This document shows, one piece after another, positions 47,376-63,771 of a DNA stretch of 64,000 nt (positions are counted from its first letter, which is position 1; each line of letters opens with the position of its first letter). The notes below the pieces were generated by a model that worked only from the letters and a program-made list of their open reading frames with translations, made no database searches and was not told where the DNA came from. The translations under genes and the position numbers were made by a program. Origin of the DNA: an uncultured Saprospiraceae bacterium (GTDB lineage Bacteria > Bacteroidota > Bacteroidia > Chitinophagales > Saprospiraceae); the NCBI GenBank assembly GCA_937959275.1, contig CALGLU010000058.1, positions 118,290 to 182,289 on the forward strand. The letters are read 5' to 3'.

Positions 47376-49451
47376 TTATTCGTCACAAAAGCCATTTGGA
47401 TCAATAATCGTTTGAATCGTAATACATGGTTGTCTGAATACTGTATCTAATACGCCATTGTTATCGACATCGATTACATCCCAGGTAAATATGGTCATTT
47501 GTTGGCCGCCTATATCATCGCAAGTAAAATCGGTAACATTATCTGTTGGATCAAAAGAAAATGATGATATAATTTGTGTAGATGAAGGATAGCAATCATA
47601 TTCTAGGGTCGCGATTTCGGAAGCCTGTATTGCGACTGTGCCAGAATCGTCTATTGATTTCACAAGCCATTGGCATGTAAACGTCGTTGGCAAGTTTGGG
47701 TCGGCAACATGTACAGTAAAGTGATCAGTTGCAAACAGATTACACTGTTGGTCTTCTACAGTAATCGTTATGGTGTGGAGTCCAAATGGCATAGTACCAC
47801 TTAGTGTATAAGCAATAGAAGATCCGCTTACTGATGTAGTTTCAATCATTACATTTGCTAAGGGTGAATTTGGTCCGGCAATATCAACACGAGTGGATAA
47901 ATATTCGGGTATGCAATATTGAATTGAAAACGGTACACTTATGGAGACTTCACAATTTTCATCTCCTACAGTAGACAGATCAGTCAAGGACTGCAAAAAT
48001 ATTGGTGCGTTTTCCATAGACGGACAAGACCTTTGCAAAGCAACACTGCATGTATCTTTGTTTTCAGAGCCATCCACAGCAAAAATAAGTAACTCTGCAA
48101 CGCCAACCCAAACAGAACCTTGTTGAGGCACTTGATAGATTCTTGGACCTGCACCATCCGTATTTGTGGGTATTAACGCGTCACAATTATCTAAGCCATC
48201 TCTCAGATCAGGAATTAGGAATTGACAATTTGAGTCTATTGGCATCATAATCGTTCCATTGGCTGGACATATAATATTTGGAGCGACTAAGTCTACGACT
48301 TCCAAGTCAAAGGAACAGGTAAATATCGAGCCATCATAATTCATAGCCGTCATCGAAATAGTATCTGTTGATAGACCATAAAGAAGAGTAGCTGGAGCTG
48401 GTGACTGTACGATATCTCCCAAACCGATATTACTTGTGCAAGAATTTGAAATTAAAACCTGATTTCTATAATTGCTGACAAACGCAGTGCAATCCTGATT
48501 TAACGACACCACTTGGTTAGCGGGGCATTCTATGCTGGGAGGAAGAGTATCGATGACGCTCACTGTAAACGCCACATGAGTTAACAGATTACAATTAGAA
48601 TCTTCTACATCGATATAAATATAAGTTTGACCTATGGGAATACTGCCGCTCAAGAGATAATTCGAAATCGAATCTGTAGTCTCTTCCGTATTTATCATGA
48701 GTGATGAATTCAAAATGCCATAGGAATTAAGGTCAACAGATAAGCGGTCTGGGAATCGATAATCAACTTGAAACGGGAGTTGTAGGAATGCCATGCACGT
48801 ATCATCTGCTAAAAGAGTCATGTCAGGCAAGTCTTGTAAGAAAGTTGGAGCATCTTCTATTGGGGGACAAAATTGGTCAATGCAATTATCAGGATCAATG
48901 AGTGCTTCAAACATAGCAGGCTGTAAGACTTCAAAATTTGGATTGAGTACGATTTCATTTGATTTAAAGATGACATGTGAACTGGTATCGACCGTCCCAC
49001 TAGATAAAATAGATTCAAAAGACTGATATGTATCTTCTGGAATAAAGACATCATTGACTGATAGGACATCATAGCATGGATCTCTTTCTAAGACGGTGAC
49101 GATACAATTGTTGCAACCTGGCACACCGTGGCTATCGATGATGTAGCAAGAATCTGAAATTGCTTGACCTAGACACACATTATTTTGTACAGGAGTGCCA
49201 TCGCCACAAGTCATGCCCGCTTCAAAAACAATATTTTTAAAATCAGGATACATGGGATGAATATATACGCCAATTCTGTCGTTTCCATTCACTCTATCAA
49301 AACATTGACAGCCGTTAATATCTGGTCCAACAACGTATTCATCATTCGCAGCATATCCACAATTAGAGACTTCGATTTTTATGGGTCGTTGACTGTAGAT
49401 AGTTGACATAGTAATAATGAAAAGTATACAAAAGATGATTTTAGTTTTCAT
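47376..49451 (-). CDS. Secreted HYR-type repeat protein
   Basis: 691 aa, signal peptide; DTLPPSIECPANQVVSLNQDCTAFV HYR-like repeats; C-terminal DVIDVDNNGVLDTVFRQPCITIQTIIDPNGFC shared with 50870-51790. Confidence 0.7.
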   Translation of the reverse strand: MKTKIIFCILFIITMSTIYSQRPIKIEVSNCGYAANDEYVVGPDINGCQCFDRVNGNDRIGVYIHPMYPDFKNIVFEAGMTCGDGTPVQNNVCLGQAISDSCYIIDSHGVPGCNNCIVTVLERDPCYDVLSVNDVFIPEDTYQSFESILSSGTVDTSSHVIFKSNEIVLNPNFEVLQPAMFEALIDPDNCIDQFCPPIEDAPTFLQDLPDMTLLADDTCMAFLQLPFQVDYRFPDRLSVDLNSYGILNSSLMINTEETTDSISNYLLSGSIPIGQTYIYIDVEDSNCNLLTHVAFTVSVIDTLPPSIECPANQVVSLNQDCTAFVSNYRNQVLISNSCTSNIGLGDIVQSPAPATLLYGLSTDTISMTAMNYDGSIFTCSFDLEVVDLVAPNIICPANGTIMMPIDSNCQFLIPDLRDGLDNCDALIPTNTDGAGPRIYQVPQQGSVWVGVAELLIFAVDGSENKDTCSVALQRSCPSMENAPIFLQSLTDLSTVGDENCEVSISVPFSIQYCIPEYLSTRVDIAGPNSPLANVMIETTSVSGSSIAYTLSGTMPFGLHTITITVEDQQCNLFATDHFTVHVADPNLPTTFTCQWLVKSIDDSGTVAIQASEIATLEYDCYPSSTQIISSFSFDPTDNVTDFTCDDIGGQQMTIFTWDVIDVDNNGVLDTVFRQPCITIQTIIDPNGFCDE

Positions 49452-50869: not shown

Positions 50870-51790
50870 CTAAAATTGGCAAAAGCCATTTTGGTCAACG
50901 ACCGTTTGGATAGCAAAACAGGGTTCTCTAAATACGGTATCTAGTACGCCATCGTTGTCACTATCAAGCACGTCAAAAATGAACATGGTCACCTGGTGGT
51001 CTCCCAAATCTCCACATACATAATTTCGGACATTGTCGGTTGGATCAGCAGAAAAAGCTGAAATTATTGTTGGTGCTAAAGGATCACATGAACTTCCTTC
51101 TGTGACACATACAATTTCATCTGAAGTAAATGTGACTGATGGTATCGGACCATCTTCAAGTGATTTTACTATTTTTTTACATTGGAAAGTGGCTGGTGTT
51201 CCATTCGGTGCGACTACAACTACATCAAAACTTTTAAATGTGGAAAGGGCACAATTAGAGTCGTGAGCTAATACGGTTACAGTATGTATACCAATTGGCA
51301 CAGTTCCACTCAATGTGTACTCTAAAGTAGATCCATTTGTCGCCGTATTAACTATAGCTAAATCTCCACTTGTCGAATTTGGACCTGCAATAGAAAAGCT
51401 CATAGAAATATGATCGGGAATGCAATACTCTATTTGAAATGAGACATTGATCTCAGCTTCACAATTCCCATTCGCATCAAAGCTTAAATTAGAAAATTCT
51501 TGCAAGAAAGAAGGTGCGTCGGCATCTTCGGGACAAGTCATACATGGAGTAAATGGACATGCTACAGCTTCTGTTCCAAAAGAGCCATCATCTTGGACAA
51601 GCACACGAAAGCATGTGCCATTAGGAGCTGTCATGACAATGCCATCACAAGATCCTTCAATAAAAATATCACCATCTTCGATGTGAAGTTCAGGAAGAGG
51701 AGCTAAAGAATTATTGGCACAGCTTTGTGCTTCAACATTATTTAAGGAGCCAATTACCCAAATGATTAGAATAACTATATAATGATTCAT
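50870..51790 (-). CDS. Secreted HYR-type protein, paralog of 47376-49451
   Basis: 306 aa; N-terminal LHIEDGDIFIEGSCDGIVMTAPNGTCFRVLV module; C-terminal DVLDSDNDGVLDTVFREPCFAIQTVVDQNGFC. Confidence 0.7.
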   Translation of the reverse strand: MNHYIVILIIWVIGSLNNVEAQSCANNSLAPLPELHIEDGDIFIEGSCDGIVMTAPNGTCFRVLVQDDGSFGTEAVACPFTPCMTCPEDADAPSFLQEFSNLSFDANGNCEAEINVSFQIEYCIPDHISMSFSIAGPNSTSGDLAIVNTATNGSTLEYTLSGTVPIGIHTVTVLAHDSNCALSTFKSFDVVVVAPNGTPATFQCKKIVKSLEDGPIPSVTFTSDEIVCVTEGSSCDPLAPTIISAFSADPTDNVRNYVCGDLGDHQVTMFIFDVLDSDNDGVLDTVFREPCFAIQTVVDQNGFCQF

Positions 51791-51794
51791 GGTA

Positions 51795-52841
51795 CTAGTT
51801 TGGGCAGGTTACAAAAGTTGTTTCTAAATCACCGTTGTTGTTGACGGTCATTCTGTAGCAGTTTCCATCAGGAGTGGTAAAGACGACACCACGACATGAT
51901 TCTTCTAGATAAACGTCGCCATCTTCAATATGGACGTCTGGTTTGATGTCTTGGTCGCATAAAGGTTCTTCACATAATCCTTCATTAGCTAATTCTGGAT
52001 ATCTGTAAATACCGTTTATAGAACCACCAGAAGCATAAGAATAATACGACAAATAAATTCTACTCCCGATTGATCCCAGAATAAACGGGGCAATAGTACC
52101 TCCTTTACCCTGAACTAATTCAAAACAGGTTAAAGGGACTGGATTTAAATCAGATGTTAATTGGAAGTGATCGCCGTAATCAATAGAAAAAACTTCTCCA
52201 TTTACATCTACCTCGTCAGTAGCACAAAATATGCTTGTTGTTGGCAGCGAAGAACTATAATTGGATTCAGAAATCGAAACAATAGTATTTATAATTGGAT
52301 CAAATTCATAATAGTAATATTCTACAGACGGACCAGCTGTATTTGTAAAAATATATACCTTATTGTTTGATTCATGAATTCGAATCGTATTTTGAATCGG
52401 TCCTGGAAATTGGTAATCATTAATAATTACTCCGCTTGAACTTAATCTATAAAGAAGGAGTTCGGTTTCCCCAAGTCCAAAGCCTACGAAATAATATTCT
52501 GAATTCACTGCTGTGATTCCGCGGCTATAAATAGACAAATTAGGGTCATTAAATATAGTTGTTGGCATATTATTAATTAAGCTAATTCTAGAGATTGATT
52601 GAAAGTCATATGCGTACAGTGATCCATTATATTCCATAGTAAGTTGTCCGGGTACTATAGAGGTTATAGTTTCAGATTGATTTAAAAAATAAATTATACC
52701 ATCACTTCCTTCAAAGTATAAACCATTGGTTTTACATATGACACTTCCACCCCTTATAATATTTGAATCAATAAGTGTTTGGCCAGATAATAAATTCCAA
52801 AATCCAGTAATAAGAATAAATAGAATGCAGTGATTTTTCAT
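51795..52841 (-). CDS. Secreted protein with C-terminal HIEDGDxYxEESCxGVxxTxPxGxCYR module
   Basis: 348 aa, signal peptide; C-terminus DVHIEDGDVYLEESCRGVVFTTPDGNCYRMTVNNNGDLETTFVTCPN. Confidence 0.65.
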   Translation of the reverse strand: MKNHCILFILITGFWNLLSGQTLIDSNIIRGGSVICKTNGLYFEGSDGIIYFLNQSETITSIVPGQLTMEYNGSLYAYDFQSISRISLINNMPTTIFNDPNLSIYSRGITAVNSEYYFVGFGLGETELLLYRLSSSGVIINDYQFPGPIQNTIRIHESNNKVYIFTNTAGPSVEYYYYEFDPIINTIVSISESNYSSSLPTTSIFCATDEVDVNGEVFSIDYGDHFQLTSDLNPVPLTCFELVQGKGGTIAPFILGSIGSRIYLSYYSYASGGSINGIYRYPELANEGLCEEPLCDQDIKPDVHIEDGDVYLEESCRGVVFTTPDGNCYRMTVNNNGDLETTFVTCPN

Positions 52842-52928: not shown

Positions 52929-55349
52929 TTAAGGACACTCAATTCCTTGAGCATATAAGAGGCCTGCATCGCTAACTTTTATTCTATAGCATGACCCATT
53001 TGGTGATTTGATAATCATCCCGAAACATTCATCATAGATATATAAATCGCCTTGTTCGATTTCGCTGAGGACATTTGGTGGACAGAAGTTGCAATTTGGA
53101 TCATCTGCTCCTTGCTCCACCACTAGCTGTAAGTAATCTGTCACCACACAGCCATTCGTTAAAGTCATGTCTAAACGAATATGATAGGTACCTCCAGTTT
53201 CAAAAGTGACAGTCTCAGAGGTATTGGTGGAATTTCCGATGGCATCAAATTCCCATTCCAAAGTATGAATATCTATGAGCGCATATCCACCTATAGGAAT
53301 AATGCCAAATTCATATTCTCCACATCCGACTTGTTTGTAGCTAATCGATGCCGAATAATCACTAAAGCGCATACATCCATTCACAGGTATTTCATTGCCA
53401 TCACAATCGCGGATCATAAAATTATATTCCCCATTTAAAGCTCCTGGTGAAACAGTATAGCTTCCAGTGTTACTTATCGTAGATAATAAAATATCTGGTT
53501 CAAGACCCTGGCATTGCATAGCTATAATATCTATATCGCAGTCACAGTCTTGACCTATCCAATTAATGTGGACAGGCGTATTAGGTCCGACACAGAGATC
53601 TTGTAAATCCTCTGTTTCGATTGGACCTTCATATTTGTTTCCAAAGTGATAGCCACCTTGTACTACAAAAGTGCCAAGAGTAACTTGATAATAATTATTA
53701 TTAGGAAGAGTACGTTCCCAATTAGGTTGATTGACTTCGCTAATCGCATAGGAGCCTGCAGATAAATTTCGAAAATAGTAAAATCCAAGATCGTCTGTAA
53801 ATTGGGTCTCTAAGACTTGACCATTACTTGGGTCTCTGAGTTGGATTTCCCAACCTGCTAAGCCCATTGATAATTCATAATCAGAATATTCACCATCACA
53901 ATTCTTGTCGTGAAACTTTTGACCTGTTATCACACTACCATCTCCATCGCAGCAACCATAATCAATAAAGGTGGCCCCAGAAATGGTTCCTTCTAAATTG
54001 AATCCCATTGCAACAGCGTTGGTATTTCTGACATCCCCTCTGATACAATATGTGCCTGCATCCAAATTGATTGATTCATTGACATCTAAAGCAGTTGATT
54101 GTTTATAATTTGCTTCACCAAAAGTATGAAGTGCATTACCCTGTGTGTCCGTAAGCAATACAGTGACTTCATCATCTGCTAATGCTTGGAAATCAAATAG
54201 TACATCACTGTTATCTTCTGACACACAGAAATATGTTTCATAACTGTAAGGTGGCAGAGGTGGTCGATTGTTTTCGTCTAAATTATTGCTATTAAAAGCG
54301 CTAATCCAGGTACTTGTTGGGAAATTCCCCCAAGCTCCATTTGGGCTTATACTAAATGGACTATAAGGCAAACTTATATTCGAAGTTGGTGCAGATGGTG
54401 GCGGTGGCATATTAACCAAGGTCCAATAACCTGTTTGTTGGCCTATAGGGTATAGTTGATTATTGGCATGATTGACTCCGGTGCTGATGTTGATTGTGTT
54501 TACAAAGCATTCTGTTGGAAGTATTGGTCCACATGGTAAATCATTACAAGTATCTTCCAACACGTTTATTTGTAAGTCATTTGTAATAAAGTTTGAGACA
54601 TTGCCATCCATTGTAAAACTGACAAGAGATCCATTATATCCATTTCCAGACCAATCACAAACTTCGGTTATAGCACTATTATCTTGATTAGGCACACCTT
54701 CACTAAATTTATAGTAGGTCACAAGTCCTGTTTCGTTTCCAACCAATTCAGTACCGCGATTATTTGTAATTTGACTTTGTGATCTAGCAAAATTCCAAAT
54801 TCTCACTTCATCCATTGATCCAGTTAATGAAGCAGATACTACTTCAGAAGTTCTCCCTAATTTAATTGTATTTGGTAAATCAAAAGTAGATGTTACATTA
54901 GTGACATAGCTATACATTAAATCATCCAGAAAGAGAGTAATATCATTTCCGTTCTTAGTCATAGCAAAATGATGCCATATGCCGTCTCTAACATTCACAC
55001 CAATAAATGGCCTTATCCAATCCTGACCACCATCAAAATATCTATCAACTACTCTTAATTCATCCACAACTTGGGTTATAGAAAATGGTTCATAGTTATT
55101 TGCTCCTACCCATTTAAAATATTTTCTTAATGCTAATTGTTCATTTGGATTCGGCTTAAACCAAAATTCTACAGTAAAATCGGCATTACCAGTTAATGCA
55201 GAATTTAAGATAACTTGATCACTATTTAAATCAAAACCTAAAACTTCATTGTCACAATTAGATTGTGCAGTCAGGTTCGTGGCTGACAAAATAAATACAA
55301 TAAAAATCAATTGGAAAATATTATTATAAATATACTTAAGTGTTTTCAT
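52929..55349 (-). CDS. Secreted LamG / SdrD_B-like adhesin-type protein
   Basis: NSALTGNADFTVEFWFKPN...HHFAMTKNGNDITLFLDD (LamG); ITGQKFHDKNCDGEYSDYELSMGLAGWEIQLRDPSNGQV..TDDLGFYYFRNLSAGSYAISE (SdrD_B); C-terminal DLYIYDECFGMIIKSPNGSCYRIKV. Confidence 0.78.
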   Translation of the reverse strand: MKTLKYIYNNIFQLIFIVFILSATNLTAQSNCDNEVLGFDLNSDQVILNSALTGNADFTVEFWFKPNPNEQLALRKYFKWVGANNYEPFSITQVVDELRVVDRYFDGGQDWIRPFIGVNVRDGIWHHFAMTKNGNDITLFLDDLMYSYVTNVTSTFDLPNTIKLGRTSEVVSASLTGSMDEVRIWNFARSQSQITNNRGTELVGNETGLVTYYKFSEGVPNQDNSAITEVCDWSGNGYNGSLVSFTMDGNVSNFITNDLQINVLEDTCNDLPCGPILPTECFVNTINISTGVNHANNQLYPIGQQTGYWTLVNMPPPPSAPTSNISLPYSPFSISPNGAWGNFPTSTWISAFNSNNLDENNRPPLPPYSYETYFCVSEDNSDVLFDFQALADDEVTVLLTDTQGNALHTFGEANYKQSTALDVNESINLDAGTYCIRGDVRNTNAVAMGFNLEGTISGATFIDYGCCDGDGSVITGQKFHDKNCDGEYSDYELSMGLAGWEIQLRDPSNGQVLETQFTDDLGFYYFRNLSAGSYAISEVNQPNWERTLPNNNYYQVTLGTFVVQGGYHFGNKYEGPIETEDLQDLCVGPNTPVHINWIGQDCDCDIDIIAMQCQGLEPDILLSTISNTGSYTVSPGALNGEYNFMIRDCDGNEIPVNGCMRFSDYSASISYKQVGCGEYEFGIIPIGGYALIDIHTLEWEFDAIGNSTNTSETVTFETGGTYHIRLDMTLTNGCVVTDYLQLVVEQGADDPNCNFCPPNVLSEIEQGDLYIYDECFGMIIKSPNGSCYRIKVSDAGLLYAQGIECP

Positions 55350-55569: not shown

Positions 55570-56943
55570 ATGACTTCCAAATTAATCTCTTGCTTAGCCG
55601 TTCTTTCAAAAGAAGAATGGAGCTCTTTTCGAAAATATCTGTTGATGAAAACAGGTGAGGAATCTGATAATTATCACTTATTCAAAACATTCCAGAAGCG
55701 AAAATCGAAACTAGCAGACATGAAGAATGCTGACCAAATTTGGCAAGGTGAATTTAGCCAGATGAGTCAGAAATCATTTGCTAATCTCATGTCAAGAGTT
55801 ACTGGCTGGCTAGAAGAATGGCTTGTGTTTTTTGATGCACAGAAACATAACTATCAGCAACAGGTAGAACTTGTAGAAGCCTATAATAAAAGAGGATTGT
55901 ATACACTCGCAGATAAGGTGTACCATAAAATTTTAAAGGAGATGAATGCAGAGGAGAAAGAGTCTATTGAACGGGATAGCGCTCTTGCATCATTGTACAA
56001 AGCACAATATTATAGTGACAATCCAATTAAATATGCTTTAGGAACAGAGCTCTTAGAATATGTTGTGCATTCCTATACTAATTATTCAAATAAGCAATCT
56101 GCAATCTATCTAGCAGAACTATTTAACTGGGGAGAAATTAAGCACGTTGATTTTATAACAGAAAAAAAACGCATTGATCACAGCATTAATAGAAATGAAC
56201 TACCATTAGCTTATTCTTTACTCTTGGAACTAGTTAGTAAAAAAGAAGCAACATATTTATATCAACTCACAGATGAAATATTCAATAACAACATTCAGCA
56301 AGAGAGTATTATTCATATGCTTGTCATTATGTACAGTATTAACTATTATTTGAAATTATTTAATAAAGGGTCAATCGATGATCCTGAATTATTAATTCGA
56401 CTGTATAATTATGCTATGAAAACTGGTGCCTTATTTACAAACGGGAAAATTCCAATTGTGCGATTTCATAATACTGTTAATGCGATTTCAACATGCGTGC
56501 CTCAAAAAGACTGTGATGCCTTTATAGAAATGTGGGCTGATCGAGTAAGTGCAGCGGATATAGAGTCCAGCAAGAGAGTTGCCTTAGCTTTGTCTCATTT
56601 CTATTATGAAAATTATTCCAAAATTGTTCCATTATTACAAGGGATACACTATGAAGACGTCTATGTTAAAATTCGGTCCAATTCCTTGCTACTTATTGCC
56701 TATTATGAAGAAGGTGAAGCATACGATGATGTACTAATCAATCATATATTTAATCTGAGAAGGCAGCTAAAAAGACTTAAAGCTAAGCTGAGTCTTAGAA
56801 CTTTTCATGCACACTATAACTTATGCGACTTTGTTGAAAAACTTGCCGAAATAAGCTGGAGAAAAGAAGGACAGTTAGATCACACGACATACCCCTATCT
56901 ATTTTTTCGAAACTGGGCCAAGACTAAATCGTCTGCGCAGTAA
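55570..56943 (+). CDS. Hypothetical helical-repeat protein, 457 aa
   Basis: Long intact ORF, Leu/Glu/Lys-rich, TPR-like; no family recognised. Confidence 0.6.
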   Translation: MTSKLISCLAVLSKEEWSSFRKYLLMKTGEESDNYHLFKTFQKRKSKLADMKNADQIWQGEFSQMSQKSFANLMSRVTGWLEEWLVFFDAQKHNYQQQVELVEAYNKRGLYTLADKVYHKILKEMNAEEKESIERDSALASLYKAQYYSDNPIKYALGTELLEYVVHSYTNYSNKQSAIYLAELFNWGEIKHVDFITEKKRIDHSINRNELPLAYSLLLELVSKKEATYLYQLTDEIFNNNIQQESIIHMLVIMYSINYYLKLFNKGSIDDPELLIRLYNYAMKTGALFTNGKIPIVRFHNTVNAISTCVPQKDCDAFIEMWADRVSAADIESSKRVALALSHFYYENYSKIVPLLQGIHYEDVYVKIRSNSLLLIAYYEEGEAYDDVLINHIFNLRRQLKRLKAKLSLRTFHAHYNLCDFVEKLAEISWRKEGQLDHTTYPYLFFRNWAKTKSSAQ

Positions 56944-57536: not shown

Positions 57537-60404
57537 TTATAGCGCTATTCTTACTCTAATATATGTCCCTTCATCTGAGGGTAGCTCTTCAATTGAATAT
57601 ACATCAGAACTCGCCTTATTAATATGAGCTAATCTCTTTTGGGTGATGCTCATACCTAGAGATCTATGTTTTTTAGATAGTTTATTCTTGATATTGCCAG
57701 ATCCATTATCCTTGATGTCGATGAGGAGCGTGGTATCTTCTTCGTGGAAATCGATGTTAATCATACCGTCAGATGTTAATCCTTTCATGCCGTGTATGAC
57801 GGCATTCTCAACAAAGGGTTGGATGAGCATGGGAGGGATTTCGATCTCTTCTGGATACAAGTCATTAGAATTGGTAATCTCGTAGTCGAAACTGTGATCG
57901 GCTCTAAGCTGCTCCAAGGCTAGGTAATTTTCTAAAATCAATATCTCTTGATCGAGTCTGATTTGTGAATCGACTGAGGCGTTGAGATTAAGCCGAATAA
58001 GCTTGGCAAACTTACCTAAGTATTCCATGGCTTGTTCTTTTTCGTTATCCATGATGAAGCTTTGGATGGAGTTGAGGCAATTAAAAATGAAGTGAGGATT
58101 CATCTGGGCTTGAAGGGCTGATTTTTCGAGTTGGTTTAATTCATTTTTGATACGTAGGGCTTGAGTGAGTTGGCCGACTCTATATCTATATAGGAAAAAC
58201 CCTAGACTTATCAAACTTAATCCAGCTAAGCTATAAAACCAGTATGTGCGCCACCAAGGTGGATTGATCTCAAAATCGAACTTAGTCATTTCTGTCATCT
58301 CTCCTGATGGCAAAATGCCTTGGACAACGTATTGGTAATCATCTGGTGGGAGGAATGGGAATTCGACTTCTGCCCCATTTTCGACGATGGTCCACTCTGG
58401 GTAGTGTGGGAGCAGCTTGTATCTGACAGATGATAAATCTGCATTGTGCCAGTTATTGGTGTAATATGTGAGGGCAACTTCATTTTGTGTATAGTGCAAA
58501 TCTAGACCATTAGTTAAATCGACTGATCGATGATCGAATACTTCTCTATTGATTTTAAGTTCATCAAACTTAAGTGTATAGTTATTGGTGTCTGTGAATG
58601 CTTCATGGATGTGATAGCTTGTGACATACTTTTCGGCTACGTGTATGACTGAGTCTTGTATAGCGAATACGGGTGTGTGCTCAAATCGATCTTTGGTGAA
58701 GTATTTGAGTTCCGCAGTTTCTATGTGATATCTTGCTAGCTTGTTTTCTATTGACATGTAAAGGTATCCGTCTTGGTAGTCAATTTCTGAGATTGTTTTG
58801 TTGTCTATTTCCCAAGGGGCGGTGGCGAGTTTTGAGACTTTGTAAGTACTGTCTATTTTGTATAGACCGGAGTTGGTGGCGCAGTAAAAGTTGTTTTGGA
58901 GAGAGTCGTTGGTGACTTGGTTTAAATATGATCCTACGTTTATCAAGGTATCAATAGATGGGCCATTTATCCAAAATTCAGACGTATTTAAAAAATAAGA
59001 TTTATAAGTATTTGTAAAAGGTCCAAAACCAAATATTTCACCTTCATATTTACAACTTTCCCGTTTTTCAAACCTAAGCTCATTCAAGCTTGAAGAAAAC
59101 AAATGAAAATTTGCAATTACATACAATGAATCTTTAAACATTTTTTTATCCATAATCCTTTGTCCAAACTCGAAGGGAACCATCTTAAAATCACGATTTG
59201 TAAAGGTGTAATTTCTAATCTGGAAATTTCCAAAAACTAGTGCATTTAGTGAGTCTATAATTTCTATATCAAGAATCTGCTTAAGATCGATATTTTTAGA
59301 ATTAACAATCTCTATTTTAGGCATATTAGAATCCAAGCCATCAACAACGAATTTATTTTTTTTATCTGTATAGACCACTAAATCTTCATAATGATCAAAT
59401 TTCAACCAATTATTAGCAGCTTTTATTTTTTTTGAGATCAACTCATCTACATTTGAAACGATTTGAATGCCAACATCATAATAGGACAACCATAGGCGAT
59501 TAACTTTATCCACAAAAATATCAGCAGGACTATTTGTCAATAGTTGCACACCGTCACTTTCATCAGTTAATAGTTGGCTATATTCATTTTTCAACAAATC
59601 AAAAACAAACACGCCATCACCTTTTGTTGATATTAACAAATTGTTTTTAAATAAAAAGGCAATATTAAATTCAATGTTAGGAGAAGGGTAGATCGTAGAT
59701 AAACACGGATCAGTCATATCAAGGTTTATCAATCCTATATTTGAAATCAAGAATATTTCAGTCTTATAAAAAAGAACTTGACTAACTTGAATTTCTTTTT
59801 CATAAAATTCACAATCTGTAAATTTTACTATTTTCTTTACCCAATCATTACTTTTTTTCCAAATCTCAACACCATCATTTAACAACCACGGACATGCTAC
59901 AATTAGGTCACCTTTAACCCCAAAACGCATACCATAGGATAGCCCAATAATTTCTACTATTCGCTTTTGACCAGTATCATAAACCAATATGGTGTCACCT
60001 GCTTTTAAATAGATAAAACTTTTAATTGATGCAAATACATGATACCCTTCATCAATAATTTCATTATCAATTTGTAATTGAAAACTTTTAAACTTTTGAA
60101 CGCTAGCATCAAAATAACAAATACTGTTATATGTAGAAGTCCAAAAACCCCCTTCTAAGTCTTTAAACAAAGCGCTTTGTAGTACTTCGTCATTCAGTCC
60201 ACTTAATGTATCATTTAATTTAAAGTGCGTTGTACCAATCCCATTAAATCTATTCCATCCATCATTTGTGCTCGCAATCCATATATCATTTTTGAATTCA
60301 GTAATAAACGTATTGAACTTGGGAGATAAAAGATCAATTTGATGTTGGCCGTTTACTTGACCAATTAAAAATACATTAAATAATAACACTATCCGATAGA
60401 GCAA
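57537..60404 (-). CDS. Propeller-type sensor histidine kinase (Y_Y_Y + PF06580/LytS-like)
   Basis: 955 aa; N-terminal propeller; YQYVVQGILPSGEM; TM; LQAQMNPHFIFNCLNSIQSFI..EKEQAMEYLGKFAKLIR; MLIQPFVENAVIHGM. Confidence 0.88.
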   Translation of the reverse strand: MLYRIVLLFNVFLIGQVNGQHQIDLLSPKFNTFITEFKNDIWIASTNDGWNRFNGIGTTHFKLNDTLSGLNDEVLQSALFKDLEGGFWTSTYNSICYFDASVQKFKSFQLQIDNEIIDEGYHVFASIKSFIYLKAGDTILVYDTGQKRIVEIIGLSYGMRFGVKGDLIVACPWLLNDGVEIWKKSNDWVKKIVKFTDCEFYEKEIQVSQVLFYKTEIFLISNIGLINLDMTDPCLSTIYPSPNIEFNIAFLFKNNLLISTKGDGVFVFDLLKNEYSQLLTDESDGVQLLTNSPADIFVDKVNRLWLSYYDVGIQIVSNVDELISKKIKAANNWLKFDHYEDLVVYTDKKNKFVVDGLDSNMPKIEIVNSKNIDLKQILDIEIIDSLNALVFGNFQIRNYTFTNRDFKMVPFEFGQRIMDKKMFKDSLYVIANFHLFSSSLNELRFEKRESCKYEGEIFGFGPFTNTYKSYFLNTSEFWINGPSIDTLINVGSYLNQVTNDSLQNNFYCATNSGLYKIDSTYKVSKLATAPWEIDNKTISEIDYQDGYLYMSIENKLARYHIETAELKYFTKDRFEHTPVFAIQDSVIHVAEKYVTSYHIHEAFTDTNNYTLKFDELKINREVFDHRSVDLTNGLDLHYTQNEVALTYYTNNWHNADLSSVRYKLLPHYPEWTIVENGAEVEFPFLPPDDYQYVVQGILPSGEMTEMTKFDFEINPPWWRTYWFYSLAGLSLISLGFFLYRYRVGQLTQALRIKNELNQLEKSALQAQMNPHFIFNCLNSIQSFIMDNEKEQAMEYLGKFAKLIRLNLNASVDSQIRLDQEILILENYLALEQLRADHSFDYEITNSNDLYPEEIEIPPMLIQPFVENAVIHGMKGLTSDGMINIDFHEEDTTLLIDIKDNGSGNIKNKLSKKHRSLGMSITQKRLAHINKASSDVYSIEELPSDEGTYIRVRIAL

Positions 60405-60423
60405 GATTACGGTTTTTACAAGC

Positions 60424-61332
60424 TTATTGTGGTATCCAATGTGGTGGGCAAGGCATTGCTAAATGCTCTGCAGGAATCGCATGGTTAATTGCTGCAACAC
60501 CACGTTCAAGCACAACATTTGATTGAACAATACCATCCTCAACAACTTTAAAACCAGTAAATTTTAAAGTAAAATAATTTTCATTTTGTCCAGAAGATAG
60601 TTGATTATTTGAATTCTCATAAACGTGGTAATTACCTGTACTTATTTTTGTTCCAGAAACACCAATGTATTCAGTTTCATTATAAAGCAATATTTGCATT
60701 AGGTCATGGTAACCAATAAAAGAATCTTCCAATCCGATAGGACAAGGATTATTTTGTGCAAAATTCATGCAAAATTGAAAATCAGTATCTAAAATTCCAT
60801 TATCCTGTTCGTACATGTACGTAGAAGGCAAAGTAATAATGCTGGTATTGGAATTAATATTTAGAGATACAGGAGAACGTTTAATTCTAATTGGGTTTAG
60901 CCCTGGATTACAAACACGTTCCTTATAGTCTGAATTTGAAATATCAATAAAGTCATTCGTATACAAAGGTTTTGAATATGCTGGGATTATATCTAAAACA
61001 TAAGTATTATTCCCAGTAGCAGAAGGCTTTATATAAAACCCTTCCAATGAAAATCTTGCATCATTTACTTTATTAGGGCAATAAGCTTGTGACCATGCCT
61101 TATTTAAAAGAAAAATAAAGTCTTCCTTTTTAAAAAGTATCATTTTGAAATTCCCCACATTCATGTCACTTTCACAACAGTCACAACACGTTATTCCTTC
61201 TGAAACATAAGTAGGCGGACATTCCGGGCATTGATCACAAGTTGGGCATGGATTAAAAAACCAGCACCAAAAAGAAAATCCAATAGCTATTGGTGCTAAT
61301 ATTGTCAAAATATTTCTAACTGAATTACTCAT
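60424..61332 (-). CDS. Membrane-anchored Cys-rich protein ending in PCPPHWIPQ (X3)
   Basis: 302 aa; N-terminal TM then CPTCDQCPECPPTYVSEGITCCDCC; C-terminus AEHLAMPCPPHWIPQ*. Confidence 0.7.
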   Translation of the reverse strand: MSNSVRNILTILAPIAIGFSFWCWFFNPCPTCDQCPECPPTYVSEGITCCDCCESDMNVGNFKMILFKKEDFIFLLNKAWSQAYCPNKVNDARFSLEGFYIKPSATGNNTYVLDIIPAYSKPLYTNDFIDISNSDYKERVCNPGLNPIRIKRSPVSLNINSNTSIITLPSTYMYEQDNGILDTDFQFCMNFAQNNPCPIGLEDSFIGYHDLMQILLYNETEYIGVSGTKISTGNYHVYENSNNQLSSGQNENYFTLKFTGFKVVEDGIVQSNVVLERGVAAINHAIPAEHLAMPCPPHWIPQ

Positions 61333-61422
61333 ATAGTATTCTTTATTTAAATAACAAATCCTTCTTCCGCTCCACCAACATTAATTTATAAACCTGTCAA
61401 CTATAAAATATTTACACAAAAT

Positions 61423-62151
61423 CTAAATCCTAGGACTAGGAATTCTAGATTCAGTAATCTTAAATTTTATCTCCTTAATTTTACCTGTGCTCTTTTTCAA
61501 AGTTTCTGGGATCCAATGTGGTGGACATGGTGGAGCGATCAAAGACAATGGCTGTGCAGGTGGATTTCCTGATCTACCACCTGAAGAAGTTGAAGCCGGT
61601 GCTGGTTCATAGACCAAAATGGTATTCTCACCTCGTCCACCACAAATAATTTTTAAAATATCATAGTCCTGATGGTGTGATTTTTTCCATATTGAGTTTT
61701 CAAAGTTTAAAGTTGCATGAGAAAAATAGTACCAATTACAATATTTTATAGTTTCATTGAAATTCCCGTATTCTAAGAAGAAAAAATCAAAACTTGCATT
61801 CAACGATGCAATGTGATGCGGTTTAAACATTTCTTCGTGAAAAAAGTCTAGCCCATGAGTTGCGACGTCATAAACTTCTGGATCCCCCCCATCATATACA
61901 TTGCAATGTCTTTGTTCATTATTAGTTAACTCCATTGGAGCACTGTTTGCCTTATTTGTGTGACTATGATAAACTTTAGTAAACTCAAAACAACATTGAT
62001 TTGATGTATCTCCGACCAACTTTATGATCCAACCTCTTAGATCGCAATGGTTTGGATGCTTTATTGGTTTTTTATTGCTCATTGATTTATAGCCAAGAGC
62101 AATGAGTAAATCCGAACTACTAACTTTTATGAAACTATGTAAACCTGACAT
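61423..62151 (-). CDS. Uncharacterised protein with APPCPPHWIPE motif (X2)
   Basis: 242 aa; paralog of 62252-63010 (FFFLEYGNFNETIK, LKI-CGG, LIAPPCPPHWIPE). Confidence 0.7.
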   Translation of the reverse strand: MSGLHSFIKVSSSDLLIALGYKSMSNKKPIKHPNHCDLRGWIIKLVGDTSNQCCFEFTKVYHSHTNKANSAPMELTNNEQRHCNVYDGGDPEVYDVATHGLDFFHEEMFKPHHIASLNASFDFFFLEYGNFNETIKYCNWYYFSHATLNFENSIWKKSHHQDYDILKIICGGRGENTILVYEPAPASTSSGGRSGNPPAQPLSLIAPPCPPHWIPETLKKSTGKIKEIKFKITESRIPSPRI

Positions 62152-62251
62152 AATATATTTTATTTATTTTCTGATTATAGTACTTTTTCTATTTAAAATA
62201 GTTCATTCCTCCGACTGACAAGAGCCTGTTACTCATTGGACCTTATCTGCG

Positions 62252-63010
62252 TTATTCTCCTTTAACTTTAATTAGTTTATCTTCTACCATTAACCCCTTC
62301 TCATCACTATTCAATAGTTCAGGTATCCAATGTGGAGGACATGGAGGTGCAATTAACATCAAAGGTTGAGCGATTGGCGCTTCTTGCCTGCTCTTAGATG
62401 ATTCTGCTCGCCTTAGCGGATAAGTTGCAATGGTCTTAGGCTTATTTCCGCCACAAAGAATTTTTAAAACATCAAAGCTTCCGTCTTGTGAGTTCCGCCA
62501 TAGAGAATTTCCAAAGTTCAAAATTGATCGAGAAAAATAATATGAATCACAATGTTTTATAGTTTCATTAAAATTTCCATATTCTAAGAAAAAAAAATGA
62601 AAATTTGGTTTAACATCATTTTGATCACCTACAAACATTTCTTTATTAAAAAAATCTGCATTTTTAACTATAATATTAACCCTATCAGAATTACCTTCAG
62701 ACGTATCTAAAGTATCTTGAGAACCAATCGGTATTCTAAGATCAATATCACAGTGTATTTGTTCAATTTTATCTAATTTCCTTTTTTTTGAATATGGTTT
62801 ACTACCTGAGGATCCTTTACTGTGATAAACTTCTACAAACTCAAAACAACTTTTATTTTTTGGATTTCCAACGAATGTAATTTTCCAACCTCTCATTTCA
62901 TTATGTCTAGGATGCCTAGGAACACTCTCGTCTTTGACACCCTTTTTGTATCCAAGAGCACTTAGTAAATTAGGACTGTTAACTTTTATAAAATTATGTG
63001 TATTAGACAT
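62252..63010 (-). CDS. Uncharacterised protein with APPCPPHWIPE motif (X1)
   Basis: 252 aa; paralog of 61423-62151. Confidence 0.7.
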   Translation of the reverse strand: MSNTHNFIKVNSPNLLSALGYKKGVKDESVPRHPRHNEMRGWKITFVGNPKNKSCFEFVEVYHSKGSSGSKPYSKKRKLDKIEQIHCDIDLRIPIGSQDTLDTSEGNSDRVNIIVKNADFFNKEMFVGDQNDVKPNFHFFFLEYGNFNETIKHCDSYYFSRSILNFGNSLWRNSQDGSFDVLKILCGGNKPKTIATYPLRRAESSKSRQEAPIAQPLMLIAPPCPPHWIPELLNSDEKGLMVEDKLIKVKGE

Positions 63011-63057
63011 TAAATTTGCTTTATACTGTAAATAATATTTTTAACTTTTAAGATTTC

Positions 63058-63771
63058 TCAAAACAACACATCCTTCTTCCGTCGACTAACAGGCACCTGT
63101 GCCCCATTGGACATCAATGCATAGCCACCGTCTTCTCGGATGTATTTTCGCAAATACTGCTTATTAATTAAATGACTGGTGTGTACCCGTAAGAAATCTA
63201 TGGAGTCTATCTCCTTTTCTAGATTACCTATGGATCGGCTGACCATTTCTTTTTCTCCGTTTGCTAAATAAATGGTGGCGTAAGAGCCATCTCCTTCTAC
63301 CCGAATGATATTTGACTTGGTCAGAAGACTAAGCCCTTCGGATGTGCTGATCGCGAGTTTTTCGTCTTCCGTTCGATCCAATAATGCTTTTAGTTTTTGG
63401 AAGGAAAGCTGGGATTCATTTATTTTTTTTACTTTCTCAACCGCTGTCATCACATCTTTAGGGCTGATCGGTTTCAGAAGATAATCTAAGGCTTCATATT
63501 TAAAGGCTTTAATGGCGTACTCGTCATAAGCTGTGGTGAAGATCACCTTTAACTCTTGTGTATCTAGGATATCAAGTAGGTCAAAGGCATCGCCATCATC
63601 TAACTGTATATCCAGAAACAATAAGTCCGGCTTTTGCTCCATAATGAGTCTTCTACTATCCTTAATAGTTGCTGCAACACCGACTAACTCCAACTCTGTA
63701 CAATATTCTGTAATGATCTTGGAGAGTAGACGCTGCGCTTTCAGCTCGTTTTCTATAATGGCTGTTCTCAT
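63058..63771 (-). CDS. LytTR-family response regulator
   Basis: RTAIIENELKAQRLLSKII..PDLLFLDIQLDDGDAFDLL..TTAYDEYAIKAFKYEALDYLLKPI; LytTR IIRVEGDGSYATIYLANGEKEMVSRSIGNLEKEI..FLRVHTSHLINKQYLRKY. Confidence 0.92.
   Translation of the reverse strand: MRTAIIENELKAQRLLSKIITEYCTELELVGVAATIKDSRRLIMEQKPDLLFLDIQLDDGDAFDLLDILDTQELKVIFTTAYDEYAIKAFKYEALDYLLKPISPKDVMTAVEKVKKINESQLSFQKLKALLDRTEDEKLAISTSEGLSLLTKSNIIRVEGDGSYATIYLANGEKEMVSRSIGNLEKEIDSIDFLRVHTSHLINKQYLRKYIREDGGYALMSNGAQVPVSRRKKDVLF

Follow-up and report, generated by a model that had tools for sequence, protein, structure and literature searches.

The window considered here is a stretch of 64,000 nucleotides from the genome of an uncultured Saprospiraceae bacterium (G000), and its subject is a two-component signal transduction locus in which three proteins, X1, X2 and X3, are encoded between a LytTR-type response regulator and a sensor kinase of the PF06580 type. 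The five open reading frames (ORFs), all on the minus strand and in the order regulator, X1, X2, X3, kinase, were found as an earlier note on this DNA had described them, and the three middle proteins carry an exact PCPPHWIP motif. The features of the locus are as follows.

63058..63771, minus strand: LytTR-type response regulator of 237 amino acids, with a receiver domain (PF00072) and a LytTR DNA-binding domain (PF04397).
62252..63010, minus strand: X1, 252 amino acids, a probable divergent member of the family named CPPxW below, without evident signal peptide.
62322..62344, minus strand: PCPPHWIP codons of X1.
61423..62151, minus strand: X2, 242 amino acids, tandem paralog of X1 (48% identity).
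61508..61530, minus strand: PCPPHWIP codons of X2.
60424..61332, minus strand: X3, 302 amino acids, a clear CPPxW-family member with an N-terminal membrane segment, a Cys-rich stretch and a C-terminal PCPPHWIPQ.
60431..60453, minus strand: PCPPHWIP codons of X3, at its extreme C-terminus.
57537..60404, minus strand: sensor kinase of 955 amino acids, with a signal peptide, a transmembrane (TM) segment at about residue 717, and His_kinase (PF06580) and HATPase domains.

The periplasmic region of the kinase is a putative diverged beta-propeller, assigned by way of its relatives. Its start codon is TTG, 19 nucleotides past X3, and no terminator-like site was detected within the locus; the short gap from X3 to the kinase and the lack of a terminator are consistent with an operon, although they fall short of proof. 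Scans of the window for Rfam and tRNA features returned nothing, and the window reaches the end of its contig (C58), such that the visible region stops upstream of the LytTR regulator. X1 and X2 are paralogs, as had been proposed, and have FFFLEYGNFNETIK and QPL.LIAPPCPPHWIPE in common. The observation that X1-X3 belong to no described family also stood, since no meaningful sequence relative was found in Pfam, NCBIfam, PHROGs, PADLOC or among solved structures.

PCPPHWIP is encoded at exactly three sites of the window, where shuffled sequences give an expectation of 0.00, and the relaxed pattern PCPPxW gave three matches as well (counted within the window only). Across the whole genome of 6.8 Mb, CPPHW is found exactly three times, once in each X gene. 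The three DNA copies of the motif vary solely at synonymous codon positions, which shows the peptide itself to be under purifying selection. The motif was previously placed near the C-terminus of all three proteins; it is terminal in X3, but in X1 and X2 it lies some 25-30 residues ahead of the end. A search for PCPPHWIP in 399 genomes of the order produced one extra match (G193, L011), off-frame inside an OmpA-like gene and attributable to chance, and no paper on the motif was found among the titles and abstracts of the open-access literature.

X3 is a member of an undescribed family. Searched alone against 140 genomes of the same taxonomic family, it matched three relatives (G159, G437 and G397, with E values from 1e-10 to 5e-8), and a profile built on the resulting four sequences recovered further ones. 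After inspection, CPPxW proteins were established in nine genomes (the window genome, G159, G437, G397, G395, G468, G446, G345 and G410), i.e. in 9 of the 398 sampled genomes of the family; outside those nine there was no match in any other of 396 genomes across the phylum, and in an independent scan the named records with a CPPxW protein were metagenome-assembled genomes of Saprospiraceae. One candidate (L027, in G355) proved to be an unrelated enzyme region lacking CPPxW and was discarded, and viral contigs held no relative of X3. The members vary in length and are mostly less than 30% identical to X3, and the homology detected by single-sequence and profile matches covers the body of the protein (a helix, ISGAxIxxGN and YFTLKxxG). 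All 11 sequences (X1, X2, X3 and eight relatives) have P-C-P-P-x-W without exception; the endings in the X3 family are PCPPHWIPQ, PCPPVWIPQ, PCPPRWV, PCPPRWVP, PCPPMW, PCPPSWRPQP, PCPPYW, PCPPLWRP and PCPPRWFG, and an additional Pro six residues earlier (P-x6-PCPPxW) is present in nine of them. On sequence comparison, the octapeptide PCPPHWIP is the local version of PCPPxW.

The linkage of the X3 family to kinases is conserved. In eight of the nine genomes the CPPxW gene lies directly 5' of a propeller kinase, and in the ninth (G410) it adjoins a NarL regulator; at most loci the distance from the CPPxW stop to the kinase start ranges from an overlap to 19 nucleotides. Two arrangements recur: LytTR, CPPxW and a LytS-type propeller kinase, in that order, are found in the window, G159, G395 and G468, and CPPxW, a HisKA_3 propeller kinase and a NarL-type regulator in G397, G446 and G345. 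The locus of G437 consists of CPPxW and kinase on a short contig, at the contig edge. The partner kinase therefore comes from either of two transmitter classes, whose regulators differ, and what stays constant is the pairing of a CPPxW protein with a propeller sensor. The earlier proposal that X1-X3 are tied to the regulator and kinase pair, which a lack of such linkage elsewhere would have refuted, was borne out for X3: in each of the nine genomes its relative has a propeller kinase or the regulator of one as a neighbour. The notion of a tag that came with it found no support.

Rates of change at the locus were compared between the window genome and G159, which belongs to the same genus. The regulators are 73% identical and the TM and transmitter part of the kinases 71%, whereas three segments of the propeller show 38%, 18% and 42% identity and the CPPxW proteins 27%. 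The CPPxW protein and the propeller diverge together, far faster than the transmitter and regulator core. Such paired fast divergence is the expectation for input partners, yet weak constraint would fit it too.

The membership of X1 and X2 in this family is less direct. Used as queries, neither found relatives in collections of genome contigs, viral contigs or plasmids, or in the 140 family genomes, and a weak match of X2 at C37 (L003) was rejected as chance, given that it contains in-frame stops and spans unrelated genes. A profile prepared without X1 and X2 matches both within their own genome by way of the C-terminal third (X1 at E=1.7e-5, X2 at E=0.01), and in the gapped alignment the two run collinearly, YFSxxxLNFxN and DxLKxxCGG of X1/X2 facing ISGAxIxxGN and YFTLKFxG. 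With the motif removed, X1 and X2 ranked 219 and 578 amid 4000 shuffled sequences in hmmsearch, i.e. at chance level, and in profile-profile comparison 6 of 200 column shuffles were equal or better. Common descent of the C-terminal module (P-x6-PCPPxW) of X1/X2 and X3 is likely; that the whole X1/X2 proteins share descent with the X3 family is probable but unproven. The description of X3 as otherwise unrelated to its neighbours consequently goes further than the data: an extended module is common to the three and the independent profile matches both paralogs, although beyond the motif no significant similarity was seen.

A second group of proteins resembles the CPPxW family in layout. It was reached with a 100-residue consensus sequence that served only as a lead, but the matches are real genomic DNA: of 248 genomes across the phylum, up to 25, from 17 genera, yielded CPPxC members, with E values down to 5.6e-22, at least two of the weakest matches being unusable. 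These proteins are mostly of about 105-150 amino acids and terminate in PCPPxC or in a related form such as CPxxC. Most are without a signal peptide, and some are TM-anchored or lipoprotein-like; the members tested gave no meaningful Pfam or NCBIfam match. Clustering of neighbours revealed a recurrent 6-7TM protein, for which no Pfam family was found, and a recurrent HisKA_3 kinase directly 3' of CPPxC. In 12 of 14 extended Bacteroidota loci (L112-L125, e.g. L113:796-3248, L122:785-3329 and L121:729-3250) the order is CPPxC, 6/7TM protein, HisKA_3 kinase and NarL regulator, and several classes of the phylum carry this four-gene operon. The count of 12 includes G857, in which the CPPxC ORF is present and was hidden by an overlapping ORF in the automatic list. 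As for the remaining two loci, G678 has the same four genes reordered and G814 has no clear kinase. In G678 a 249-amino-acid, lipoprotein-like CPPxC protein (L105:1489-2235) seemingly contains a pair of similar domains, and just 5' of the 6/7TM gene there is another CPPxC-like ORF (L105:2935-3195), an apparent duplication within the operon that recalls X1/X2/X3. An internal duplication of the X3 domain was tested and found unsupported.

Like the CPPxW family, CPPxC proteins are small, mostly signal-less, and marked by a conserved C-terminal Cys-Pro motif, and they are encoded ahead of a kinase gene; unlike it, they have Cys in place of Trp, are mostly of 105-150 amino acids, and are partnered by a 6/7TM protein rather than a propeller. 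At none of the CPPxW loci was a 6/7TM gene seen to separate the CPPxW gene from its kinase, which has its own sensor region and TM segment. When the motif is retained, the profiles of the two families match at E ~1e-3, with 0 of 100 shuffles as good; without it, 6 of 200 shuffles do as well, no better than a reversed control, and hhalign probabilities range from 8.5 to 36% depending on the segment. Each of the 11 CPPxW sequences has Trp where CPPxC proteins have their second Cys, none of the 11 having CPPxC, and a search for CPP[FY]C in 21 relatives gave chance matches only. At the least, CPPxC is an analogue of CPPxW in motif and gene arrangement, and the two families are possibly distant relatives.

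Two further genes of the window have counterparts at other CPPxW loci.

52929..55349, minus strand: secreted LamG/SdrD_B surface protein of 806 amino acids.
55570..56943, plus strand: protein of 457 amino acids with no Pfam match, from a Saprospiraceae family present in multiple copies (as many as 10 matches in one genome).

A relative of the former (38% identity over 547 amino acids) lies directly 5' of the regulator in G159, and the window gene is a candidate regulated output of the locus. Unrelated large secreted proteins are encoded close to other CPPxW loci. The nearest relatives of the 457-amino-acid protein in G159 and G345 adjoin CPPxW loci, but the best relative in G397 is not linked to one. 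A module of about 40 residues, GD-[LIV]-[YF]-[IL]...C-x-G...P-[ND]-G-x-C-[YF]-R...CP, stands at the end or the beginning of the secreted proteins encoded by three successive genes of the window (50870-51790, 51795-52841 and 52929-55349, all on the minus strand) and also at the end of the surface protein that neighbours the CPPxW locus in G159 (L020:6349-9351); it looks like a mobile surface-protein module. The secreted proteins encoded at 47376-49451 and 50870-51790 (minus strand) contain closely similar segments, e.g. SSFSFDPTDNVTDF and SAFSADPTDNVRNY, followed by VDNNGVLDTVFRQPC-like and SDNDGVLDTVFREPC stretches, and are apparently paralogous surface proteins. The window shared with this cluster of secreted proteins also harbours a gene for a 2529-amino-acid SprA_N protein (PF14349; 23712-31301, minus strand), a gene of type IX secretion and motility.

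On balance, it is somewhat probable that CPPxW proteins serve the neighbouring kinase as dedicated accessory components on its input side and that the motif is a contact or ligand site. The input role, the physical contact, the direction of signalling and the target genes that we infer can be put together as follows: X1-X3 would probably be co-expressed with the kinase from one operon, the body of the CPPxW protein would bind or report a stimulus, its C-terminal motif would touch the kinase or bind a ligand, and the LytTR regulator would then govern nearby surface-protein genes. This reading is favoured by the invariant motif, the adjacency to kinases of two classes with short gaps, and the fast divergence of the CPPxW protein together with the propeller, and also by the CPPxC proteins, which independently hold the first place in kinase operons. 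Several observations weigh against it. Co-localisation by itself fails to separate input from output, and in G410 the CPPxW gene has a NarL-type regulator on its upstream side, while its contig shows no kinase. Judged by eye from hydropathy and N-termini rather than with a signal-peptide program, X3 and the protein of G159 have an N-terminal membrane segment and that of G395 is lipoprotein-like, but no export signal is evident in six members (X1, X2 and those of G468, G446, G410 and G345); with predicted localisation so mixed, ordinary export could not bring all members to a periplasmic propeller, which is the most serious difficulty for a simple model. The inclusion of X1 and X2 depends chiefly on the C-terminal module, and AlphaFold models were too poor for a fold search (mean predicted local distance difference test scores of 41 for X3 and 38 for X1).

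Rapid evolution and variable localisation would equally suit effectors or envelope proteins that are under two-component control and have no sensing role, and large secreted proteins do lie close to several of the loci; such an output function is nevertheless rather unlikely, as the gene stands between regulator and kinase or immediately precedes the kinase, almost coupled with it, and does so with two kinase classes, and the analogous CPPxC gene comes first in its kinase operon at 12 of 14 loci. The earlier note had instead taken the octapeptide to suggest a shared tag, for docking, processing or recognition, on unrelated neighbours. A mobile C-terminal element of this kind would explain why X1/X2 and X3 show no significant similarity beyond the motif, but it appears quite improbable: CPPHW is restricted to three genes of the genome, among relatives it terminates the members of a single family, always encoded next to a kinase or regulator, and the resemblance reaches upstream of the motif in 9 of 11 sequences. 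Sorting signals of the type IX secretion system (T9SS), the C-terminal domains (CTDs), offer a precedent for a conserved C-terminal element in Bacteroidota proteins (PMC8545088). CTD signals sit on secretion cargo, however, and would be expected on many unrelated exported carriers, while CPPHW occurs at only three places, on adjacent genes, two of whose products have no evident signal peptide. Cys-Pro dipeptides of known haem-regulatory motifs bind haem, and the invariant Cys-Pro could likewise be a ligand or switch in redox, metal or haem sensing, the protein itself being the sensor that feeds the kinase. Invariance across the 11 sequences is limited to P, C, P, P and W, and Cys-Pro is retained in CPPxC proteins, as this would have it, but the family body contains no second invariant ligand (His, Cys or Met) and no family or structure match was obtained, which makes this explanation most doubtful.

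Accessory proteins are a known kind of component in two-component systems, and propeller sensor kinases are common in Bacteroidota. LytS/LytTR and HisKA_3/NarL systems with a Reg_prop-type propeller share with the present locus the periplasmic propeller, TM segment, transmitter and regulator; the difference is one to three extra PCPPxW proteins, for which no described counterpart was found. In the hybrid two-component systems (HTCS) of polysaccharide utilisation loci a periplasmic propeller sensor feeds a histidine kinase, as here, but kinase and regulator are fused, whereas here they are separate proteins (57537-60404 and 63058-63771), and to our knowledge HTCS have no CPPxW partner. Neither the CPPxW partner of propeller kinases nor the four-gene CPPxC operon was found in the libraries searched, and no paper on either was recognised in the titles and abstracts of the open-access literature.

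As far as we know, the inputs of propeller kinases are mostly obscure outside polysaccharide loci, and a fixed C-terminal PCPPxW on a co-encoded protein provides a concrete, mutable handle on them. The CPPxC look-alikes at the head of similar Bacteroidota operons suggest an overlooked type of signalling input protein, and the operon of CPPxC, 6/7TM protein, HisKA_3 kinase and NarL regulator may be a common unnamed signalling module, more general than the CPPxW finding. It is unlikely that CPPx(C/W) proteins make up one superfamily of dedicated, motif-bearing input proteins, possibly precursors that, like AgrD, give rise to a C-terminal signal which is secreted or presented, and that they act on diverse kinases of Bacteroidota either via a 6/7TM protein (CPPxC) or directly via a propeller (CPPxW); were this true, it would amount to an undescribed three- to four-component signalling principle across the phylum.

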